Assembly (NCBI GenBank): GCA_025526915.1
Contig: JAHLKH010000095.1
Coordinates: 1 to 64,000 of the forward strand
From: Entophlyctis helioformis
Lineage: Eukaryota > Chytridiomycota > Chytridiomycetes > Chytridiales > Chytriomycetaceae
Reading direction: 5' to 3'
Length of the DNA stretch: 64,000 bases
A program made the position numbers and the translations under genes. The notes beneath the pieces are model-generated. The model saw nothing but the letters and a program-made list of their open reading frames with translations, made no database searches and was not told where the DNA came from. Numbering within the stretch: the first letter of the stretch is position 1; every line of letters starts with the position of its first letter. Shown piece after piece: positions 2,027 through 61,935 of this stretch.

Positions 2027-3771
2027 TCACGCCCGGGATCGGAGCCACTTGATAAAGGCAACGCCTGCGGTGGTGGTGCCGATCAGCACCGCGCCAATGA
2101 CCGATGTGGAGTGCGGCACCTCGTGGAAGAGCCACAGCCCAAACAGAAACGCAAACACAATGTCCAGGTTGCGCATCAGAGTTGCAGGCTGTGGTGCATT
2201 CATGTGAGTGCCAGATCCACAACAGCACGCATGAGAGATCAGCCATCCGACTTACACCGGCGTTGGCAAGTTGGAGTCCCTGCCATCCATCAAACAAGGG
2301 ATGAAGCAAGCAGTGAGTCTGAGTGCAATCGTGACATCAGAAGCAGCCGTCAATGACTTACCGCATTCAGGAAACACTGCGCTGCAAATGCCGCAATGCC
2401 GACAGAGAGCATGATGCCCCATTGCTCGAGTGTCCACGACATGACTGGCACAGGTAACTCAAAGGCGACGAGCAGGACAAAGGACAGCCCAGTGGACACT
2501 AGTCCAAAGTAGGTGACATTAACCATAAAATGGACCCGTTTGCCAATCAGACGAACGAGGCAGTATGCAATCGACGACATGATGGCACCGAGGAGCGCTG
2601 CAATGGTCGGAATGTACAAGGGGTAACGGAAGTGGTGCTCATCGGGGCTAGCCTTTTCTGGAGGGCCAAAGATGAATTCTGGACGCGACACAAGAGCTGC
2701 ACGGCACGTAATGGCGCGATCAGACGATCAGCATCACCCTTGAGGATGTAATGCATGCACGGGATGCACTGACCAACACCAGCCAGGCAGCACACGGACG
2801 CGAATGCATCCAGCACGGTGAACGGCTCGCCCAGAAAGAGGAACGCGGCGATCGCTGTGAATGCCGGTCCAATGAAGAAGATGGCTGTCATGCAAAGAGC
2901 ATCGCAGTGCATCAGCACCAACACAAGTCATGCACACGACAGCGGGATGAATGCAGACAAGTGCGGCATGTGCGTACTGGTTCCATCGCCAAGCGGCATG
3001 TTGATGAGCGTGAAAAAGTAAAAGCCAAGACCGATGGCACCGGCCGCGCCACGAGCAAGCAGCAGCCGCTTGTTGACGGCCGGTGGACCCCATGGCTCGA
3101 CGCCAACGATCAGACATCCGATCACGCCGCAGATGAGCTGAATGACGGACCGCACAAACACGACCTGTGTGGATGGGAACGTGTTGCCGGCAATCTTGAC
3201 GAACACGGACATGACCGAGAAGCCGAGTGCAGACAGCGCCTGTTGTTGTGCCGTTGCGTTGTGGTGTTGGATGCACGTTGGATGCACATTGGATGCAAGC
3301 AGGATGCAAGCAGGATGCACAAGGTTGTTGTCGTGGAAGGTCGATGCAGACACGCAGGTCCACCACCAAAGCCACCGATGCATCGCACATCAGATCGAGC
3401 GCAGCTGGTCAGCACAGCGGCCCCACACACTCGAGCAAGCATCCGCTGCACGGCTGTGGCATCACTGCCGTCCACAAAGCAGCAGTAGCAGTAGTAGCCA
3501 GTTGGCTTCCATGATGCCGATGCTGCTCTGCTCCGTCCGTCTGTCTGCGGGCAAACAGTCGCAGGCGAAGGATCGACGCTGTTGAACGCACCATGTATGC
3601 AAGGCCGAGCACCTCTTTGCGGCCCACCGAGGCCAGCGACAACGAAGAGCCTGTAGCTGCAGCAAGCAGGGGTCTGCTCTCTCCATTGCCTTCAACAGCA
3701 GCTTCGGCATCTGGGCTCTCGTCTTCCAGTTCAGGCACGTCCTCGACCACGACTTCTGCGGCTGGAACCAT
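2027..3771 (-). CDS. EamA/DMT-superfamily membrane transporter, copy B
   Basis: Complete tandem paralogue of the preceding gene, predicted 347 aa. Exons: 3592-3771, 2978-3239, 2780-2884, 2362-2696 and 2027-2188 (stop TGA). All phases agree: 0, 1, 1, 0. Start is the ATG at 3769-3771; an in-frame TAA lies about 30 nt upstream. About ten hydrophobic segments follow an acidic 50-residue cytosolic tail. Between the two halves the loop after RPEFIF is different from copy A (starts GPPEKASP here, SARDPTEG there), and the next two membrane segments diverge before identity resumes. Substrate not predictable; SLC35G/EamA members move nucleotide sugars, organic acids or amino acids. Family call is secure, function is not. 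Confidence 0.88.
3269..3319. repeat. Five-copy 11-bp array (GGATGCA core) in intron 1 of transporter copy B
   Basis: Duplicate of the array at 1234-1284, offset by 2,035 bp like the surrounding exons, with one base changed between the fourth and fifth units. Confidence 0.8.
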
Positions 3772-50727: not shown

Positions 50728-51031
50728 ATACACAGGTAGTTTGACTACTTTTGGCTCTCGATCGAAAGCTGCATGGCTGTGGCGCTCAGTGTTGCATGAC
50801 CATCCGCTTGCACCGCGTGAACAAGGTCGCGTGATGACGGACATCGTGTGACCGTTTGAGATGGTGAGCATCGCGGAGGGGGGGGGGGGGGGGGGTAATT
50901 GATTTCGTTCCCATAGAAAACCTTGCGCCGGCACCTGATTGGCCGGCTGGTTTGCCTCGAATTTTGTTCAATTTGGCATCCAATTTCCAATCTTTTTGAA
51001 TCCAATTTCATATTCTTGTCCGAATTCCCAG

Positions 51032-51715
51032 TCACTCTGAGCAGCCTACAGTCGATGCCTTCTCAAGTCGTGGTTGCTTTGACGCTGGCTTGTGGACTGC
51101 TGAGCCTGTCCAAGGGGCAGCAGTTGGTTGCGTGTTGGTAATGACACCAAGGACTGTCCTGCCATTGCCTGTTGCAGCTGTTGGCCTTCTGCGTCCAGGC
51201 GGCGCTCTTGTGCGTGCTGCTGAGGCGGCCTGCTGCAATGTCCGAACGACCGACGTCACAGCCAACACAGACGCACTGGCATCTGCTGCTGCTCTCTTCC
51301 GCTTGCTTGGTGCTCTTTGGCGGCTGGCTGTTGGCGTGGCAGCTACAGCAACGGCTGGCTGTCCAGGCTCGTCCGCAACGTCCTTGTCGTCGTCAAGATT
51401 GTCAAGGCACACAGTGTCAACAGAGTCGCAACTGTTGACAGCCATCACACAAGAGGCAGACGAGCTCACCAACGAGGACATGGATGGATCACTCGGCGTA
51501 TCGTTGAGCTGCCGCGTATCGTCGAGCTGCTGTAAGGCATCGCGCTTGGCTTGGTCTGACTTTGAGAACTGTCGAGGCGATACACAGAGAATGCCTGCAG
51601 CAATCTGCTCACACATGTCAACCTCTGTCCTGGCTGCCTTGGTGTAGACAGCAAGGTCACAGCGACGAGTGTCTTTGCAACAGCCAGCAGCGCAGATAAT
51701 CAGCAAGTCTTGCAT
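51032..51715 (-). CDS. Hypothetical protein, 227 aa
   Basis: Uninterrupted ATG-initiated frame with balanced composition: a Cys-rich start (IICAAGCCKDTRRC), an acidic block DNLDDDKDVADE and a basic RAPSKRKRAAADA that could be a nuclear signal. No family recognised; could be part of the accessory segment or a chance frame. Confidence 0.35.
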   Translation of the reverse strand: MQDLLIICAAGCCKDTRRCDLAVYTKAARTEVDMCEQIAAGILCVSPRQFSKSDQAKRDALQQLDDTRQLNDTPSDPSMSSLVSSSASCVMAVNSCDSVDTVCLDNLDDDKDVADEPGQPAVAVAATPTASRQRAPSKRKRAAADASASVLAVTSVVRTLQQAASAARTRAPPGRRRPTAATGNGRTVLGVITNTQPTAAPWTGSAVHKPASKQPRLEKASTVGCSE

Positions 51716-52927
51716 TCAAGGCACGATGCCGTCGCACCCCGTCATCCACAGCCAACAGCCACGCCCACCTGACTTGTCAGCATGCCCGCGAATGCAATGA
51801 CGAGCAGCATGCACAGTCTCGGTCAACAACAAAGGGCTGATCGACTGCAGGCTGCAAAGAACAAGTCGTCTCAGACCTGCTGGCGACTGAAGTCAACAGC
51901 ATCCAAAGTCGGCAATGAAGACACCGTGCCCAAGGAGAAACTCGCCTTGCACCATCATCACAAGAAAGTGCGACACATTTGTGAGATCTGGGATGACTAC
52001 TCGGTCAAAGATTGGAGGGTTGTCATGGTGTTGGTTGGCAATCTCTGTTCCAAGGAGCCAGATAGCAATATGGCGCATCTCAGTACTGCTCAGAGCACAA
52101 AGGAGGGCTGGGCATCAGGCTGGAGGTATTCACACGGATGAGATCTAGCAATTCCATGCGCACTTGGTGATTCCAACTGCGGCATGGACCCTATGAACAA
52201 GGCTGGATGGGCAACCAGTGCTGTGGCTGCCATGCCAACACCCAAACCCCGTGGAGCATCAAGCAAGCCTTTGGTTGCTCATTCAACCAAGGCATCCAGG
52301 TCTGCTGTGGTGCGGTTGTCTCTGCAGCATGCAAAAGAGTGCCGGCTGGATGCAAACAGGCGCCAGCTGAGACTGCCACAGGCAGGAGACCCTTGGTGTG
52401 CCGCCCAGTGGCCATCAAGCCACCACCTCCAAGAGGGCTGCATCAACGCCGTCTGTTCACTGATCAGAGTGACTGTGTATCCATGAATATTCAAGTTGAG
52501 TTTGGTGTCAACTGATCAGATATCAAGGCGAGCCAGCTGCGCATGCTCATCGACAAGAGCACACGCCTCGTGCCAGACTCACCGCCGAGGCCAGCTTGCC
52601 ATCCACGACTGCGCTTGTGGAGGATGAGGCATGGTGATCTTTTGCAATCAACACTCCAGATCAACGCGTTCATGTGCCTGGGTCGCGTTTTGGTGATGCG
52701 CCACTGATCATGAATCAAACATTGCAAATCTCAGACACACAGATGTGATCATCTGTGGCAGTCGCAACAACACGGCCGCTGTGTTTGTCATAAAGAGAGC
52801 GGTTGGCCCGTCTGTGGTTGCTCGACCATCCACATACACTGATACATTTTTGACGAGACTCCCTGTCGCTCATTGCCCTCTTCAGCACACCCTTGCCGTC
52901 CATAACGCAACCCCATACACGCACAAC

Positions 52928-52931
<4 letters not shown>

Positions 52932-52961
<30 letters not shown>
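52932..52961. repeat. (CA)n microsatellite
   Basis: About 15 CA repeats followed by degenerate CGCACA units up to about 53035. Confidence 0.95.
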
Positions 52962-52963
<2 letters not shown>

Positions 52964-53045
52964 GCGCACGCCGCACAATCACGCACGCACAACCACGCAC
53001 ACGCACAACCACGCACACGCACAACCGCGCACACGCGAGCACGAC

Positions 53046-55901
53046 ATGGGGGTCCCTGCGGTTGTTTCGTGCGCGGTGGAGAATGGCGGCGGCAGCGTAC
53101 ACAAGGACGTGCCCTGGTCCTTGGTGTCAAAGCTTGTGCTTGGCAGCGCACGACTGTCACAAGATCCAAGCGACACCAACACGGCCACACCCAGCCACTG
53201 CGGCGCTTTCCTTGTCGATGTGATGAGTGTGTGTTTTCCGCACTTCAGGAGAGGAGGGTCCGATCACCCGTTGTCAAAGGCCGAGTGGATACCGATCCTC
53301 AAGCCGGTACTCAGCTCGTTCACGGACAAGTTTGGCCCCGAGTACGCCTACATGTTCCACGTTGACGGCAGGCTCGGCGACTCTGGGATTAAGATTGTCC
53401 ACAACGGCCGTGCGATCAAGGTCCTGAATGCGGTGGGCACAGTTCTACGGTGTATTCGCAGACGCCGCAAACGCAAGAGATACAAGCGCTTATCCAAGTA
53501 TGTCCACTTTGTCCTGCCGCATCAAGGCGATTCTAACTCTCAGTCAATGATCCAGGAAAGAGAAGCGTGCGCTGCTGCTCTCGTTCACGCTCACGCACAA
53601 TGACAAGCAGCTGATTTACGAGGCGATCGCGGAGATCTTCAGTTCTGAGCCGCGGCGTGCAGTATGCTGGTGCAAGCACGAAGCGGACGTTTGCATTGCC
53701 CGCCATGTAGCCTACCATGCAAGCAAGCCAAGGTATAGATCGCCATGGCAACTGTCTGTTTTGATTGACGGCTAACAGTCTTTGTCTGCAGCAGCAACAT
53801 TCCCATTGCCGTCATTTGTAACGACTCTGATCTCGTGGCACACTGTGCTGGACGTTGTCCTGTCATCATGATGTCCACGCGGAACGCGGAGGCCACCAAC
53901 CTGCGGTCTTTCAACCATTCAGGCATTGTATCTCTTGCGTCTGCCCTCGGAGTATACGAGTTCCCTGGAGCTTGCCAACTTGTGGTTGCGTTGAGCAAGA
54001 GTGACTATTTCGATTGCTACGGGCGTGGTGCGTGCGATTCCTGTCTTGATGCTCTGTATTGTCGTCCAAACTGTGGTGTTGACTAACACGTGTTGCTACT
54101 CACATTGTCTTGCAGGTCTGCGCACTGCCGTCAACACCGTCAACAGGTACGTCGAGGAGGCAGCGCGCAAGAGGAATATCACGCCGGAGGAGTTCTGTGC
54201 CCTGCTCCACACCCCCAAGATTGCCAGCGACTTCAAGAAGGATGTCAGGGCCGCCTACTCTGACGAGTTGTTGGCGATCGGAGGCGAGGACCTCGTCAAG
54301 TCGTTCCTCAATGCCTTCTCCGTTTTCGTGTACCACGACGAGTCGGGAAACATGCCAGCCAGTTCAAAGCCCCAAGCAGCAACAACGGTCAATCTGGCGA
54401 TGTGCAAGGGCAGAGGCAAGTCATTGCATGACTGGCCAAGCACGTGGCACTGTAGATGCATTTGCATGCATAGCACCATACTGACCATCCATTGCTACGT
54501 GGCAATGACAGCAGCCAGGCTGCCAACACGACCGCCGCGGCTCAACCAAGGTACGCATGCATGCATCTCTTGAAGTCTCTCACATTGCTGACTCTGCGTT
54601 CCTGTCTTTGATGTCATTGTTGGATCGCGATGCAGATGCTCATCTGCTGGCTGCCTCCTTGTACACTCCAAGTGGCAAGAACGCAATCCTGACTCCGACA
54701 TTGTGCACCTGACGCAGAAGGATATCGACGGGCACCTCGACAAGATTGTCAACAACGGCGAAATGGCCACAACTTTTTACGAGGTCAAGCGATGTCCGAT
54801 TGCATTCGACTGCATTGTCAAGCACGTGCCAGGTTACCTTGCTCGCAACCCCGATGGAGTCGCGGGCCGAGATATTCTAGCCAAGATCAGCAGGACAGCA
54901 AGTGCGCAGCTGTTGGAGCTTGTCTGTGAGCAATCCCTTTTACCGACAGTACGCGCAGAGCTTGGTCGACTTGATCGGCTTGTTTGGGACACACATGTAC
55001 GTTGCAGCATGACTTGGATGCATGTGCATATCTCACCTTGAACTGTCTAACTCAATCCACTTGCATTGGACAGGGCGCAGCTCGGAGGTTGAAGGTGCAG
55101 CTGGGCAAAATTGTGAATCCTTGCTGCGTATCCTTTCAGGATATTTCAACTCCACGTACGTTTGGCTTGCATTGGAATGACTCGACGCCATGTACTGACA
55201 ACACCTTCTATGCTGAATGTGATACTCAAGAACCAATAACGCAGCCAGGCACGCAGAAAGGCAAGCAAAAGCCCAAGCAGAAAGGCAAGCAGAAAGGCAA
55301 GGTCATCAAGCAGGACGATCCCCAGAAATCCTTGGCCGAGATCCACAGAAAGGCCACCGAACGGCTGAACGACCTGAAATCTCGCACGGATGGCGAATCA
55401 GTGACACTTGTCGAGCAGCTGAACGAGGCCATCAAACTGCTAGAGTCGATCATCAAGGAAGCCTCGGTGCGTCTTCATCTTGACTGTCTGTGTGTGCATG
55501 TACTGACTTGTCGCGATCACTCATTTCTCCAATTGGCAGGAGGCTCGGCCTCCAAAGCGGCGCAAGCGGCGTAAGCGACCACAGCCATCTGTTGACGCTC
55601 AGGCAGAAGAAGTACAGCCCGTGGTCTTTTCTCTCAATCGACATTTAGACACCAAGACGACGGTTAGTTCTGATGTACCATTGGTGCTTGCATATGCATT
55701 GTGTGCACTCGGAATGCATTGCTCATGCTGCATCCAACCTCCACAGCCACGACTTCAATTCACAAAGAAGCAGGAGGCCGCGCTCATGAAGAGAAGCACA
55801 TTGCAAGCTGCAAAGGCTGCGACACTGAAGGCCATCAAGGCCAACAAGGGAAAGTCGAGCCGGTTTGCCCGTAGTAGTTTGCCTGGTGGCACGAGACAGG
55901 G
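53046..55901 (+). CDS. XPG/FEN1-type nuclease module (5' part of a probable nuclease-Fanzor gene)
   Basis: Exons 53046-53497, 53556-53732, 53792-54027, 54116-54419, 54636-54996, 55074-55155, 55231-55466, 55540-55662, 55747-55901, all in phase, no stop. The acidic residues of the FEN1/XPG superfamily occur in order: start MGVPAVV, LVDVMS, MFHVDGR, KHEADVCIAR (EAEA position), VICNDSDLVAH and VVALSKSDYF (LSGxDY position). This predicts a structure-specific 5' nuclease. A helical region (RYVEEAARKRNITPEEF) and a 300-residue unrecognised part follow, then lysine-rich and PPKRRKRRKRP stretches that may be nuclear signals. Donors at 54420 and 55156 are less certain. The last donor (55902) continues in phase into exon 10 of the Fanzor module, so this may be one protein. 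Confidence 0.7.
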
Positions 55902-55963
55902 GTAAGTGATGTATGCTGTGCCATTAGCCTTGAGTGCTCTTGCTGACATGCGTGTTTTGGCAG

Positions 55964-58900
55964 AATCGTGCGTCGCTCACGATGGGCACTACATCTGCTG
56001 ATTCGAAAGCTGGGTCGCATTGTTACAGGGCCACTCATGTCGCTCTCTGCGGCGATCGGCAGCAATGATCAACAAACGGCAGAGCAAGCAACCAATCAAC
56101 CTGCTGTGGATGCGCCAGATCAGCCTGCCGTGGACGAGCCTGATCATCGTGGCGCGAGAGTGCTGCTTGAGGTACGATTTAGGATCGCCATTCTGCCTGC
56201 ATGCATGGCTTTGCATGTACTGACTCAGAGGTTGGCGTGGTGCGCAGAAAATGTTGTCGGGCAATCCAGGAAGCGCCAAGGTCTATGGCATCGAAGCCAG
56301 GAAGACGCCAAAGATATGGACGCGGCGTCTGATCATCGAGGACACATTCGTAAAGGTGTACTCATTCATCGTCGGTGTTCGGCATGCTGGGTTCGTCGTG
56401 ATTGGCGCCATCGTCGAAGAGCTGCTTGATCTCAGCCCAGATGCGCCGCTTCCGCCCAAGTACCACGTGTACAAGTGGCTTGATGGCAAGACGACGCGGT
56501 ATTGTTTCTTGGACCTTGACTTCAAGGGCATCGACGACCTGGGCGACCATGCCAGCATCGACGGCCTCGGCGGCGTGACCAAGGCGGAGCTCTTCTCGGG
56601 TCGATTCACCCTCGGAAAGGACATCACTGCCCGCCTCATGTACGGCTCGAGTTTGTACAATCACAAGAGCAAGAAGCCTCGGTATGGGCATCCGGTGCAA
56701 CTGGCGACGGGTACAAGACTTGAGCGTGTTATGTTTGAGAAGGTCGAGAAGCCCAAGACAGCCGAGGAGTCAAAGGACGCCGAGGACGCCGAGGATGCTG
56801 AGGACGCCGAGGATGCTGAGGACGCCGAGGATGCCGACATTCACGAGCAGCCTGACGATCACGAGCAACCTGACGAGCCTCAGCAGCCTGATCAGCCTGC
56901 AGCAGCAGCACCAACAGTGCCGACATCCAACCAGCTGTTCACGGCACTCATCAACAGCACATCTGGCGGCGAGACAACTGTGGCCTGCATCTTTCGCCAC
57001 CTGTCGTTCATTTTCACCGGCAAGGAGATGGCCAAGCCAGATTTGAAGATGGAGACGATCAATGCATGGGTCGTCACTGTCATGCAGTTGATGATCCACC
57101 GTGCATGGACACGCGGGATGGTGCAGGCCAGTGCGGACAAGATGTACGCGGACAAGAATGGCGCGCAGCAGGCCAACACAATCCAGACGGACATGCAGCA
57201 GGACGTCACGTATCAGGCAGCTCTACCATACCGCCTGGACGACACTCTCTGCGGGAGCGCGACGAATGACATCTTCAACAACCTCGCCAGAGAGGTGAGC
57301 ACCATACTTGCGCGGCACTACATTGCAAGTCAATTCGACCTGGCGGTTGGTGCGGCCATCAAGCTTGCTCCCGGAATGTCTCGCGAGCAGGCGAAAGAGT
57401 TGGTTCAATCCCTGTTCAAGGAAGCCGATGCCGCCAAGGCTGCTGCTGCCACCACCAAGGCTGCTGCTGCCAAAGCCACCGCGCCAAGACCATCGGCGGC
57501 CAAGAGAGGGAGACAAACGAGTGCGGCGTCAAGCACTGAGGACGCCGCGTCAAGCCCGACGCAACCCAAGAGAGCAAGGCGCAAGAGTGCAGCGCCAAAC
57601 CCATCGTCGGCCGGTCTTGACACCACCCCTCCTGCAGCAAGCCACGAGCAGACCGCGTCAAGCTCATTGTCAGCCACTGACAAGAGCGGCGCGACCAAAA
57701 AGGCATGCGGCAAGAAGCCGGCCACCAAGGATGCCGCAAGGAACAAGAGCACTGTCGTGACCCCGCCAGCATTGCACAAGCTCGTGGCCATCATACGCAA
57801 CATGTCGCTGTCGACTGTTGGACGCTTCAAGCAGCTGCGCGATCTCGCTGGAAGAGAGAGCATCAAGCTCTGTCCTCAAGCGGCAAGTCGTGATCCCTTT
57901 GTTCTGATCACCGAAACCGTCCTCTTCTGGGCGGTTATGGGGCTGAAAAGGGATCGCACCAGCAAGTCACAAGATCCCGTCTTGCGAGCATTGAGATCGG
58001 AGCTTCTTGCTGCCATAAGTCAGTCACACTGCCTGTCTATGCCATCTTTTTATGATTTGATGCTAACAATCCACTCGTCTCAAAGAGCCTGGCTGGCTTC
58101 TCAAAGAGCTTGACTGGAAAGACTCGGAGCTTGCTTGCCCAATGACAAGATCGACAAGGCATTCAGTTCAAGTGACGAGCTGTGCGTCATGGATCTCCTG
58201 CTTCCGGGTCTTGCCTCCGATACGCGGCGCTATCAAACGCCAGCACAGGCCAAGTTGCAGATTGACCCAGCCGACACCGCGGCAGAGGCCAGAGCAACTT
58301 CTGATGTGACACAAGAAGCCAAGGCTGACGATCTTCAACTGGACGACAAGCAGTTGGTGGACGTGATCAAGGCCGAGGTTGATGCTCTTCCTCAAGTGCT
58401 ACCAACCAAGTCGGTCAGATTTGGCAGCATCAAGACCGACGGGAAGAGTGTCTTTCAAACTGTTCTGGAGTTTCGCACAAACCGTCCAAAGTCACCTCGC
58501 AGTATGTGGCGTGCTTGGATGCTGTGGTGCACGCATTGATTCTGACCACTGCCTTGCTCTGCAGATCCCAACGCGGCGACTTCAGACGAGCAGCCCAGTC
58601 ACGTTGAGGATGCTGATGACTCTGATTCTGACGATGACTTGGATGATGGCTTGGATGACGATGACTTGGATGATGGCTTGGATGATAGCCTTGATGGCGA
58701 ATGTGAGTTGCTGTGCCAATCCAGACGCACACTTGTTGTCCACACCGACTGACATGCCATCCACAGCCGCCGATCCAGCCGACTCATCAGCCACCAAGCC
58801 ATACACACCCAATCCTGTAAGTCACTTGCATGCCAACCTCGCGCATTGGCGCACATGCATTGCACATCCCCCACTCATGCCATGGCATGACAGGTCAAGT

Positions 58901-60081
58901 GCAACTTTTACGCCTCTCAGCGACTGCCCAATGTTGCTGATGCCAACAAGCTGCTCGCCGACAAGGACTTTGTTCGCGTTGTCAGCTTTGATTGGGGCAA
59001 GCGGTACCTGTTTGGCGCGTCCAGCATGCTTGTCAATGTCAAGGAGGAGACATACACGCTCGAGGCCAACTACGTGCTCTCCTCTGGCGTATTTCATGCT
59101 GAGCGTGACCTTCAGCGGTGGTATGCATGCAATGACTCTGCCACGCGCACTCTTGACCAGATCAACTCACAGTGCCTGCCTCTTGCGCCAGGCTCAACAA
59201 TCGATATGCCAAGGCGACCGACGTCCACGAGGCCATTGCATTCAAGACAGCAAAGCATGCCGATCCAGCCGTCTCAGCAGGCGAGAGAGCCTTTTGGGAT
59301 CTGCGCTGCCATGCATACTGCACGCCATTCCTGAATGCACGGGTACATTTTCTCTGGTTCTGGATGTCCATTGACATGGCCGCCATGCTGCTTGATCGCC
59401 TGCTGATTGCACTGGACGGCATGGCATGACATGGCATTCCACAGAAAGTCAAGGACAAGCGGTTTGCCATGCGCTGCAAGCGCATGTCTGATCGCGGACA
59501 GGCTCTTGAGGGCATCATGAAGCTGGCAGGATCGACCACTAGATATCGCGCATCCGATGCATCTCAAGGCCTCCCTGTCAGCAACCCAGAGAAGGACATT
59601 CCCGTTGTGTGGGCATTTGGCATCGACTTTACAGGCCAAGGTGGCCGGCATGCTGTGTTTGAGAGGTTTCTCATCAGGCATCTGCGGTCGTCTGGATATG
59701 CCTATGTGCGTCTGATGCCATGCCATCCATCCATCCATCTGTGCACCAACTGACACACGATCATGCACACACACACACACACACACACACCACACACACA
59801 CACACACAGATCTACCGCTGCAATGAGAACCTGACCAGCCAGATGTGCCGCAGTGCAAGCAGCGGATCCCATACGAGAACCGCACCAACCTGCGACGCTA
59901 CGAGTGCATACCATGCGAGACCGTCTACCACCGCGATGTGCTTGGAGCCACCAACATCGGAATGGTTGCACTGGAGCATCTGCTCTTTGGACAACGGCCG
60001 CTCTACTTGACGCACACGCCAGTCGATCCGCCTGTCGTCCAGCAGCCTCCAGCACCAGATCCGCCTGTCCCGCAGCTCTAG
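55964..60081 (+). CDS. Fanzor (eukaryotic TnpB/IS605-type RNA-guided nuclease) module, with two frame breaks
   Basis: Exons 55964-56171, 56248-58018, 58086-58501, 58565-58702, 58767-58816, 58894-59120, 59192-59342, 59445-59705, 59810-60081. Before the nuclease core are an acidic EDAEDAED repeat, helical REC-like and Lys/Ala-rich regions, and SVRFGSIKTDGKSVF, a TDG block seen in Fanzors. The split RuvC is complete: RuvC-I VVSFDWGKRYLFGAS (Asp), RuvC-II YRCNENLTSQMC (Glu), zinc ribbon CKQR to RYECIPCETVYH, RuvC-III HRDVLGATNI (Asp). The frame slips at 58138-58140 and at 59848-59849; each looks like one missing C in a C run. Other genes here keep frame, so this may be a decaying copy, or assembly error. 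The Pro-rich tail ends PDPPVPQL. Confidence 0.8.
59766..59808. repeat. (CA)n microsatellite in last Fanzor intron
   Basis: About 20 CA repeats, interrupted once, ending directly in the CACAG acceptor of the last exon. Confidence 0.95.
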
Positions 60082-60215
60082 ACCGCCATCAAGCGACCAG
60101 CCAATCCGCCTGTGACCAGCAGCCCAAGACTCCACAACGCGTCCAGCACCGATCCGCCTGTCGTCCAGCAGCCTCCAGCACCGGATCCGCCTGTCGACCA
60201 GCAGCGTCCAACACG
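60023..60215 (+). repeat. Proline-coding tandem repeat at Fanzor 3' end
   Basis: Units built on GATCCGCCTGTCGTCCAGCA recur at about 60026, 60059, 60107, 60152 and 60185, spanning the stop codon at 60079-60081 and running into the 3' flank. Confidence 0.75.
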
Positions 60216-60646
60216 CAGACAGCGTGCCAGCAAGTCAAGTGCCACTCCACATGCTCTGACTTCCAGCACAACCACCAACACTTTGAATCGGGGCACCTCC
60301 CGATCGACCTAACGGGTCACTTATCACATCATTGTTCAAACAATGGTGCAAGGTGAGCCTCTGGTGGGTTGCCTCGCCCGCCTGTCGTCGCATGCTCGTT
60401 GCTGACTCGAACCTTGCATCGTGTGATGTGCTTGCTTGCATTCGACGCTTCTTGCGACGAATCCAATTCCAAAACGCTTGGTAATTGTTTGAATGTCGGG
60501 CCATTTGCCGGCGGTTTGCCGGCATTCCCTCGCCCTATTGCCCACCCCTCGGACATCGCGTGATCAGTTGGATGAAGGGAGGCAGGGCATCGACCCTCTG
60601 GCTCGGGGCATTTACCCCCAACAACCAGCAACCACTGTCAGCAACC
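60216..60646. other. 3' flank of the Fanzor gene, no gene seen
   Basis: No conserved frame. In Fanzor and TnpB systems the guide (omega) RNA is typically read from the 3' end and downstream flank, so this is where it would be expected; no structure was verified. Confidence 0.3.
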
Positions 60647-61935
60647 ATGAGCACTCGCAACCTTCCATCAGGGTCAAGTCGATGGGATACCCTCCCGGCC
60701 GAATTGCGGCTTCACGTCCTGTACTACTGTACTGCGCTCTATGCATTCCTGCATGGCAAGCTTGCCGAACTCGGCCCAGACACGGTTCTGCAGATATGGT
60801 GCGAAACCATCCGACTCAACTGGCAAGGAGACCTGCGCCGATTGCCCGACGTTTCCAGCAGCTCGATGCATCTGGTCCTTCGAGAGACGATGCCGGTGTG
60901 CTCTCGATCCATGTACCGCCGGCTGTGTGCCCGCTTCCCTCTGCTGTCCGACTCTGGACCGACATCCGCTTCGACGCTCGCACCAACTACTACTCGCTCA
61001 ACGCCAAGTTCTGTCGCATGACCAGCGGAGCGTCTTGTGATCGTTTGCGCCACATACCCATGCGCAACTGCTGGCTCGACAATCTCGACATGACCCATCC
61101 GATTGCCCTTGGATGGCAGGCAATCATGGGCGGCCACGTTGATCTTCTCAGTCATCTTGTCCAGCATCACAATGTCCAGCTCCAGCAGTACCAGTTCTTT
61201 GACAACGAATATGCCATGAACCTGGCAGCGTTTGGCGGCCATGTCGGGATCCTGCAGATGCTGCATGATGCCGGCAACACGGCCTGCACGACCAGAGCAA
61301 TGGACGTTGCAGCCAAGCAAGGGCATCTCGAGACACTTGTCTGGCTGCATGAGCATGGCTACAGCTGCACAACGCACGCGATGGACGGCGCTGCTTCTGC
61401 TGGACACGTGGCGGTCATTGCGTGGTTGTGCCAGCACCGACGCGACCACTGGACGACAGACGCGATGGATTCGGCAGCCAGCAACGGCCATCTCGATGTG
61501 CTCATGTGGATGCACGAGCACTGCCAGTCTGCCCGATGCACAACGCAGGCGATGGACAAGGCAGCCGGACGCGGCCATCTCAGCGTTGTCCGTTGGCTGC
61601 ATGCCAACAGACCCGAGGGATGCACGACACAAGCGATGGACCTGTCGGCAACCAACAACCATCTTGATGTGGTCCAGTGGCTGCATGCCCATCGCACCGA
61701 AGGATGCACGACGCGAGCCATGGATGGTGCTTGCAAGAACGGCCATGGCGCTGTCGTCCGATGGCTGCGTGACCATCGCACCGAAGGATGCAGCCGAGAA
61801 ACGATAATGACGGCGGCGTGGCAGGGCCACCTCGACTTGGTCAATGTGCTGGTCAGCACGGTGCGGCCCCCGACAGCACAAAAGTCAGTGATGGACCGCG
61901 TGCGCCGTTTGTCTGCCAGTCGTGCAGCTCAATGA
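60647..61935 (+). CDS. F-box-like/ankyrin-repeat protein with internal frame change
   Basis: Member of the large chytrid-type ankyrin family. The N-terminus from ATG 60647 reads WDTLPAELRLHVLYYC (F-box-like) then TRSMYRRLC-type text (SRSMYRRLCARFP). Near 60940-60960 the coding frame must change by one: downstream the frame RLWTDIRFDARTNYYSLNAK runs without stop to TAA-free end TGA at 61933-61935. About eight ankyrin-like units follow with the pattern CTTxAMDxAAxxGHLxVVxWLHxH. Either a single-base frameshift or an intron with unclear sites explains the change; the first is likelier because possible introns would remove conserved residues. Function probably protein binding. Confidence 0.65.

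Follow-up and report, generated by a model that had tools for sequence, protein, structure and literature searches.

Fanzor and TnpB proteins share a long sequence motif that was published by Bao and Jurka in 2013 (PMC3627910), and in other fungi Fanzor1 has been reported in MuDr-like elements, without the MuDR transposase and with 9-base-pair (bp) duplications (PMC3627910). In Fanzors the RuvC-II glutamate is relocated (PMC10711439), and the magnesium ions of SpuFz1 are held by E541, D383, N385 and D606 (PMC10432273). Here we analysed a 64,000-nucleotide stretch of DNA (the window) from contig 95 of the 29.6-Mb, 482-contig genome of Entophlyctis helioformis. A repeated element of 9.7 kb encloses a gene at positions 53,046–60,081 of the plus strand, and this gene very probably encodes, on one spliced transcript, a FEN/XPG-like nuclease, a lysine- and arginine-rich (K/R-rich) linker and a Fanzor-like RuvC nuclease.

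Like Fanzor1 and Fanzor2, the E. helioformis protein has the long motif, a TNB zinc ribbon, a relocated RuvC-II glutamate (Ealt) six residues before the zinc finger, and carriage by a mobile element. Different from Fanzors, in which the RuvC-I motif is near-exclusively DPG (PMC10711439), it reads DWG; it is about 1,880 residues in length, whereas most Fz1 proteins are of 600–700 residues (PMC11423790); and it carries an N-terminal FEN-like nuclease, of which the accessible Fanzor literature makes no mention. Like MuDr-like elements, the E. helioformis element has terminal inverted repeats and, in its clearest copies, 9-bp duplications; no MULE transposase was found in the genome (PF10551, 0 matches). 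With TnpB of IS607/IS605 the protein shares PF07282, a weak NCBIfam TnpB match at the zinc ribbon and a D-hydrophobic-G motif, but it is eukaryotic, intron-rich and giant, and no TnpA partner was seen. The N-terminal module is similar to FEN1, XPG, EXO1 and Asteroid (XPG_I_2) proteins in its seven carboxylates, its DG..K...R stretch, its MG start and its SDY followed by G.G. It differs from them in that no profile scores over the cut-off, that the catalytic K/R and helix-three-turn-helix (H3TH)-like regions merely resemble theirs, and that it is fused to a predicted RNA-guided nuclease.

T5 exonuclease, which we take to be a FEN relative, provides an engineered parallel. It is reported to have increased the editing of FnCas12a by 2–3 fold and was also fused to enIscB (PMC11471210). 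As in the engineered Cas12a/IscB–T5 exonuclease proteins (PMC11471210), a 5′ nuclease would be brought to an RNA-guided cutter in E. helioformis; unlike those man-made proteins, the joining is natural and is located on a mobile element. Our literature search, with preprints and most subscription journals outside its coverage, found no Fanzor joined to a FEN- or XPG-like nuclease; a preceding reading of the window made from its sequence only (the sequence-only reading) knew of no XPG-type fusion.

Gene model and evidence for a single spliced gene

The splice sites were read by conservation, from an alignment of the window gene with eight paralogous copies (L039–L046). The paralog-guided model contains 19 exons, all on the plus strand, and 18 introns, one of which (after exon 4) is GC-AG. 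The spliced product is 1,883 residues in length, with X placed at three one-base breaks relative to the paralogs, located in exons 4, 13 and 19. The sequence-only reading had proposed 18 exons, two one-base breaks and about 1,870 codons; the stop-free chain is real, but the exon number, the break number and the length are those given here, and a 5-base difference from the paralogs adjoins the stop codon in addition. Owing to this difference, the C-terminus given here is provisional. Owing to the three breaks, the window copy is probably not functional as assembled; the breaks may be sequencing errors.

The two modules are bridged by a linker encoded by exon 7 (55,074–55,155), the lysine-rich exon 8 (55,231–55,466), exon 9 (55,540–55,662), which contains KRRKRRKRP, exon 10 (55,747–55,901) and exon 11 (55,964–56,171). 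In the six introns of this region (I6–I11), GT and AG are kept in all nine copies (54/54). Exons 7–11 have no stop in the shared frame in eight of the nine copies; in the remaining copy, L039, the frame is broken within exon 8. When distinct length changes of up to 60 bases were counted and longer ones excluded, 11 of the 14 changes in linker exons were multiples of three, compared to 0/11 in linker introns (Fisher p 1.2e-4). Because the intron sites and splice signals of the linker are conserved and one frame is open in 8/9 copies, one spliced gene is favoured. The in-phase joining of an XPG/FEN-like and a Fanzor part, as claimed from the letters, is thus borne out by the comparison of copies, and we strongly favour a single spliced gene as the predicted source of both modules.

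A distant copy, L058, shows the same organization: its residue identity is 27–54% across the N-terminal half and the linker, and the modules follow in the same order. Among 15 introns tested in L058, in stretches delimited by hand, 13 align better than shuffles, including I6–I11.

The N-terminal FEN/XPG-like module

The N-terminal module is encoded by exons 1–4. Exon 1 (53,046–53,497) begins with ATG (MG) and carries the acidic residues D58 and D107; exon 2 (53,556–53,732) carries E193 and D195 in an HEADV motif; exon 3 (53,792–54,027) carries D221 and D223 (NDSD) and D281 (SDY), followed by YGRG. The module ends in exon 4 (54,116–54,415), which contains the first frame break of the window copy and precedes the GC-AG intron. 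It is followed by the short exon 5 (54,515–54,550) and by exon 6 (54,636–54,996), a conserved region with no fold assigned, for which the ratio of nonsynonymous to synonymous substitution rates (Ka/Ks) is 0.34–0.52.

Exactly seven acidic residues of the module, D58, D107, E193, D195, D221, D223 and D281, are invariant in eight copies, each column being filled in at least six of the eight rows. In order and spacing they match D34, D86, E158, E160, D179, D181 and D233 of FEN1. The equivalent of FEN1 E160 is Asp; the carboxylate order D, D, ExE, DxD, D is otherwise kept. The ordered FEN1/XPG acidic motifs noticed in the sequence-only reading are present, and no other acidic residue of the module is invariant. 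In this alignment, the L042 row ends after exon 2, as exon 3 of that copy does not keep the frame; the L045r row begins at VDVLSV, and five rows lack a residue where exons 1 and 2 join. When seven of the 36 acidic positions were drawn at random, the FEN1 pattern was recovered in 2 of 2,000,000 draws, at a tolerance that was set after the data were seen. The module is under constraint, with a Ka/Ks of 0.35–0.49 (five pairs).

Pfam XPG_I_2 matches three of four pieces of the module, with E values of 0.0016 (L058), 0.0047 (L044r fragment) and 0.17 (window fragment), and the three matches cover overlapping profile positions. XPG_I has four matches in the genome, all of them in genes that we read as host XPG, EXO1 and FEN1. 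Among PHROGs profiles, none was better than E 0.19, and a comparison of the module alignment with viral contigs gave 34 pattern matches and 0 confirmed relatives.

The C-terminal Fanzor-like module

The C-terminal half begins with exon 12 (56,248–58,018), the 590 residues of which presumably form a WED/REC-like N-terminal part, judging from its position. It is followed by exon 13 (58,086–58,501), which contains another frame break of the window copy, exon 14 (58,565–58,702), an acidic repeat, and exon 15 (58,767–58,816). RuvC-I (FDWG) is located in exon 16 (58,894–59,120). Exon 17 (59,192–59,342) is followed by exon 18 (59,445–59,705), with the strand VVWAFGIDFTG at the RuvC-II position, and by exon 19 (59,810–60,081), which holds the Ealt glutamate (NENLTS), the C4 zinc ribbon, RuvC-III (YHRD) and the last frame break of the window copy.

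The long motif D-X(125,275)-[TS]-[TS]-X-X-C4-X(5,50)-RD is present with a first spacing of 188. In the first row of alignment A2 it consists of D33, T222-S223, C226/C229, a further CxxC and RD; E219, at the Ealt position, lies six residues before C226. Both the three RuvC motifs and the zinc ribbon claimed from the sequence are thus found. PF07282 (TNB zinc ribbon) matched with E values down to 2.5e-11 and NCBIfam TnpB down to 4.6e-6, each in three of four members. A Fanzor-profile check, which the sequence-only reading had proposed, gave a divided result for PF07282: the window copy reaches 22.9 bits, under the cut-off of 26.3, whereas 150 scored matches in the genome exceed it.

The mobile element and its copies

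The gene lies within a repeated element of about 50,876–60,550, wider than the 53,046–60,081 taken as the unit in the sequence-only reading, which coincides with the gene. Homology between copies stops near 50,890 and 60,550; with the inverted repeat included, the left end moves to 50,876. The 5′ terminal inverted repeat region (50,876–50,900, plus strand) consists of GAGGGG, with an extended G tract, followed by GGTAATTG, and is inexact to the repeat pattern; the 3′ terminal inverted repeat (60,536–60,550) reads GAGGGGTGGGCAATA on the minus strand. Both element ends bear GAGGGGYRGGYAAT or close variants. A genome search gave 97 matches for the inverted-repeat pattern and 0 for the reversed pattern.

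Target duplications were examined at both ends of 11 insertions, the window included. Perfect 9-bp duplications were present in two of the 11 (C264 and C108), and C235 matches at 8/9 bases. In the window, the flanks 50,867–50,875 and 60,552–60,560 match at 7/9 bases, a degenerate target duplication. In C22, a perfect 12-base repeat adjoins a left end that is altered; C169 shares the flanks of C22, and its repeat is imperfect. In C112, a repeat is found next to altered ends. No clear duplication is seen in C16, C18, C103 and C116.

No gene was recognised in the 5′ part of the element (50,901–53,045, no strand assigned), and none of its ten open reading frames (ORFs) matched a transposase over cut-off, the best match being Transposase_32 with an E value of 0.16. 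In the genome, searched for the MULE, KDZ and IS1595/Merlin families, no IS1595/Merlin transposase was found. KDZ-type transposase fragments gave four matches, on C334, C271 and C396, with no link made to the Fanzor element.

At least 99 loci with the XPG-like module were compiled by hand from two protein searches (63 and 36 more), with the contig-edge fragment C15:1-156 excluded. In the PF07282 search of the genome, 150 of 205 candidates were scored. Among the matches listed, a same-strand TNB match follows 49 of the 99 XPG-module loci at 2.1–8.6 kb downstream, 47 of them at 5.4–8.6 kb, whereas in the control orientations (upstream or on the other strand, within 9 kb) there is none (0/99). 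The remaining 50 loci have no TNB partner among these matches; the window copy is counted with them because its own TNB is not among the matches listed. Conversely, 101 TNB matches are without a listed XPG partner. Four of these loci were inspected: one is cut by a contig end, two are 5′-truncated, and in the fourth, L058, the XPG-like module is divergent; no full-length Fanzor gene without an XPG-like module was seen among the four. Searches of protein databases returned E. helioformis matches only (0, 3 and 10, with 8,000 candidates scored each). The family occupies some one hundred or more loci, many of which are truncated or decayed.

Two loci, L057 (C23) and L059 (C5), are 5′-truncated copies in which the 3′ gene end is kept. 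At the host FEN1 locus (L049), a 3′ fragment of a Fanzor gene occurs in antisense orientation immediately downstream of FEN1, at about 2,600–3,120. In the window, a 480-residue ORF (60,493–61,935) begins right at the 3′ end of the element and presumably encodes ankyrin-like repeats.

The element 3′ end and sequence mosaics

The 3′ end of the element after the stop codon of the window copy (60,082–60,535, plus strand) is conserved between copies and is a candidate guide-RNA region. In an alignment of ten rows from nine loci (two rows are the same locus, C366), it folds modestly better than 50 column-shuffled alignments, with a z of about −2.2. Possible hairpins are located within 60,331–60,550, one near ATTCGACGC...GTCGAAT and one formed by GCCGGC...GCCGGC, and this segment is a candidate for the guide-RNA scaffold.

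Compared to the middle of the gene, the element ends (50,890–52,288 and 58,900–60,550) are more alike between subfamilies; identity over 50,890–52,288 is roughly 94–96%. In addition, L042 looks recombinant, with 75% and then 90% identity. The copies are thus mosaics. Using introns I1–I11 and exons E1–E12 of the window, L041, L043, L044 and L045, we found that in the 5′ half the intron interiors are 76–84% identical between subfamilies, compared to 47–70% at fourfold sites (10 pairs). In the 3′ half, intron and fourfold-site identities are about equal (six pairs). The high intron identity of the 5′ half possibly results from strong constraint on the introns or from exon exchange via spliced templates.

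Discussion

We propose that the E. helioformis element carries one spliced gene with a FEN/XPG-like nuclease, a K/R-rich linker and a Fanzor-like RuvC nuclease, and that the tethered FEN-like domain acts in end trimming during repair. Weighted towards the anatomy, the two parts together have a probability of about 0.6 in our estimate; the anatomy by itself is highly probable, while the role in end trimming stands at somewhat below even odds. The Fanzor half, guided by RNA from the 3′ end of the element, would cut an empty or allelic site. At this break, the FEN-like domain would then trim flaps or 5′ ends, and such trimming would disfavour simple rejoining and favour homology-directed copying of the element back into the site. 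For TnpB, the accepted view is that cleavage of an empty site favours copying of the element back into it.

Several results weigh against this reading. In public gene models the gene is divided; P0001 covers just the XPG-like module (349 residues), and its junctions at introns 1–3 agree with the paralog-guided model. The linker is near neutral, with a Ka/Ks of 0.60–1.16, and its sequence is thus of little importance apart from the frame. Of the 14 length differences in the XPG-module exons and exon 6, only five are multiples of three (0/12 in their introns), which is expected if many copies are decaying. In the copies read with exon 16, RuvC-I is FDWG, LDWG or IDWG; owing to this DWG in place of DPG, the C-terminal half is called Fanzor-like. 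The N-terminal module does not reach the cut-offs of XPG_N, XPG_I or XPG_I_2 (at best 18.4 of 24.2 bits, for XPG_I_2), no other Pfam or NCBIfam profile scores over its cut-off, and no XPG_I_2 match was found in the fourth piece, L045r. We therefore term the module FEN/XPG-like and do not file it as a member of the family; the profile check suggested in the sequence-only reading thus gave weak XPG_I_2 matches, none over cut-off. No relation to FEN/XPG or Asteroid was detected by hhalign, and a narrow hidden Markov model, ranked with host FEN1, EXO1, XPG and Asteroid, placed none above decoys.

Structure prediction, also suggested in that reading, gave models of low confidence: the mean predicted local distance difference test score (pLDDT) was 45.5 for the N-terminal module, and the pLDDT of the RuvC model was 41.5. 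At E ≤ 0.001, Foldseek returned no match for either model, and unrelated proteins occurred in both lists. The first three rows for the low-confidence N-terminal model are two plastid exonuclease 1 chains and a chain of a Rat1–Pol II complex; for the low-confidence RuvC model the first two are of Cas12 type (Cas005 and Cas12-1), both non-significant, and the third is Hsp70. In VIA-align, amino-acid kinases outrank FEN1 for the N-terminal model; the carbamate/glutamate-kinase rows that head this list for the low-confidence model were judged uninformative. Sequence searches of the PDB with the profile of either half found neither a FEN chain nor a Fanzor or Cas12 chain; ribosomal L23 and a Rho GEF gave the best rows.

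The two modules could instead belong to adjacent genes, or be made as separate proteins from one transcript, and merely travel together, a possibility which the sequence-only reading had kept and with which the annotation of the XPG-like module alone in public models and the near-neutral linker agree. In 8/9 copies, however, the modules are connected through six conserved introns and a frame that stays open, and the linker exons change length mostly by multiples of three; separate genes are unlikely in view of these observations, and we consider the whole alternative quite improbable. The N-terminal module might also be catalytically dead and serve, as a PIN-like fold, in binding or as a scaffold. 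Its sequence similarity to known FEN/XPG proteins is indeed very low, but the seven residues that correspond to the FEN1 metal site are its sole invariant acidic residues in eight copies, and we hold a dead fold to be highly improbable.

Guide processing is the main rival to the end-trimming role: the FEN/XRN-like domain could trim the 5′ side of the element transcript into guide RNA, or clear this transcript, instead of acting on cut DNA. In line with this, the Foldseek rows of the low-confidence model include, besides FEN1, XRN1 and Rat1-complex chains (5′–3′ exoribonucleases), and the 3′ end of the element is conserved and folds modestly better than shuffles. The best Pfam match, though weak, is XPG_I_2 and not any XRN family, and we regard this alternative as unlikely. 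The module could also be a transposition factor that processes nicks, flaps or gaps at element ends or intermediates for a transposase supplied in trans, with the Fanzor half as a passenger. Such a role would suit an element with inverted repeats and, in its clearest copies, 9-bp duplications, which has no transposase over cut-off in its 5′ ORFs and resides in a genome in which no MULE or IS1595/Merlin transposase was found. Both modules, however, keep their catalytic residues and have Ka/Ks below 1, so neither looks like a mere passenger, and we consider this explanation distinctly unlikely.

Returning to the end-trimming reading, the element may encode a natural, self-targeting "cut and resect" nuclease, with an RNA-guided half that would break a chosen site and a FEN-like half that would open it to homologous copying, and spread or persist by guided gene conversion; this extension is speculative, and we hold it to be somewhat unlikely. 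At such breaks, exons may be exchanged between copies from spliced, RNA-derived templates, a route for which the higher conservation of 5′-half introns than of fourfold sites leaves room.

The role of TnpB and Fanzor in eukaryotic transposons is a standing question. The spread of the fusion, in which each half has kept its catalytic residues, points to a part for end processing, either of DNA or of the guide, in what these proteins do, and a fused lineage makes end processing testable. The fusion would be a natural counterpart of engineered exonuclease–Cas fusions, with many natural variants for comparison. If the "cut and resect" reading is true, a mobile element foreshadows the man-made Cas–exonuclease fusions.

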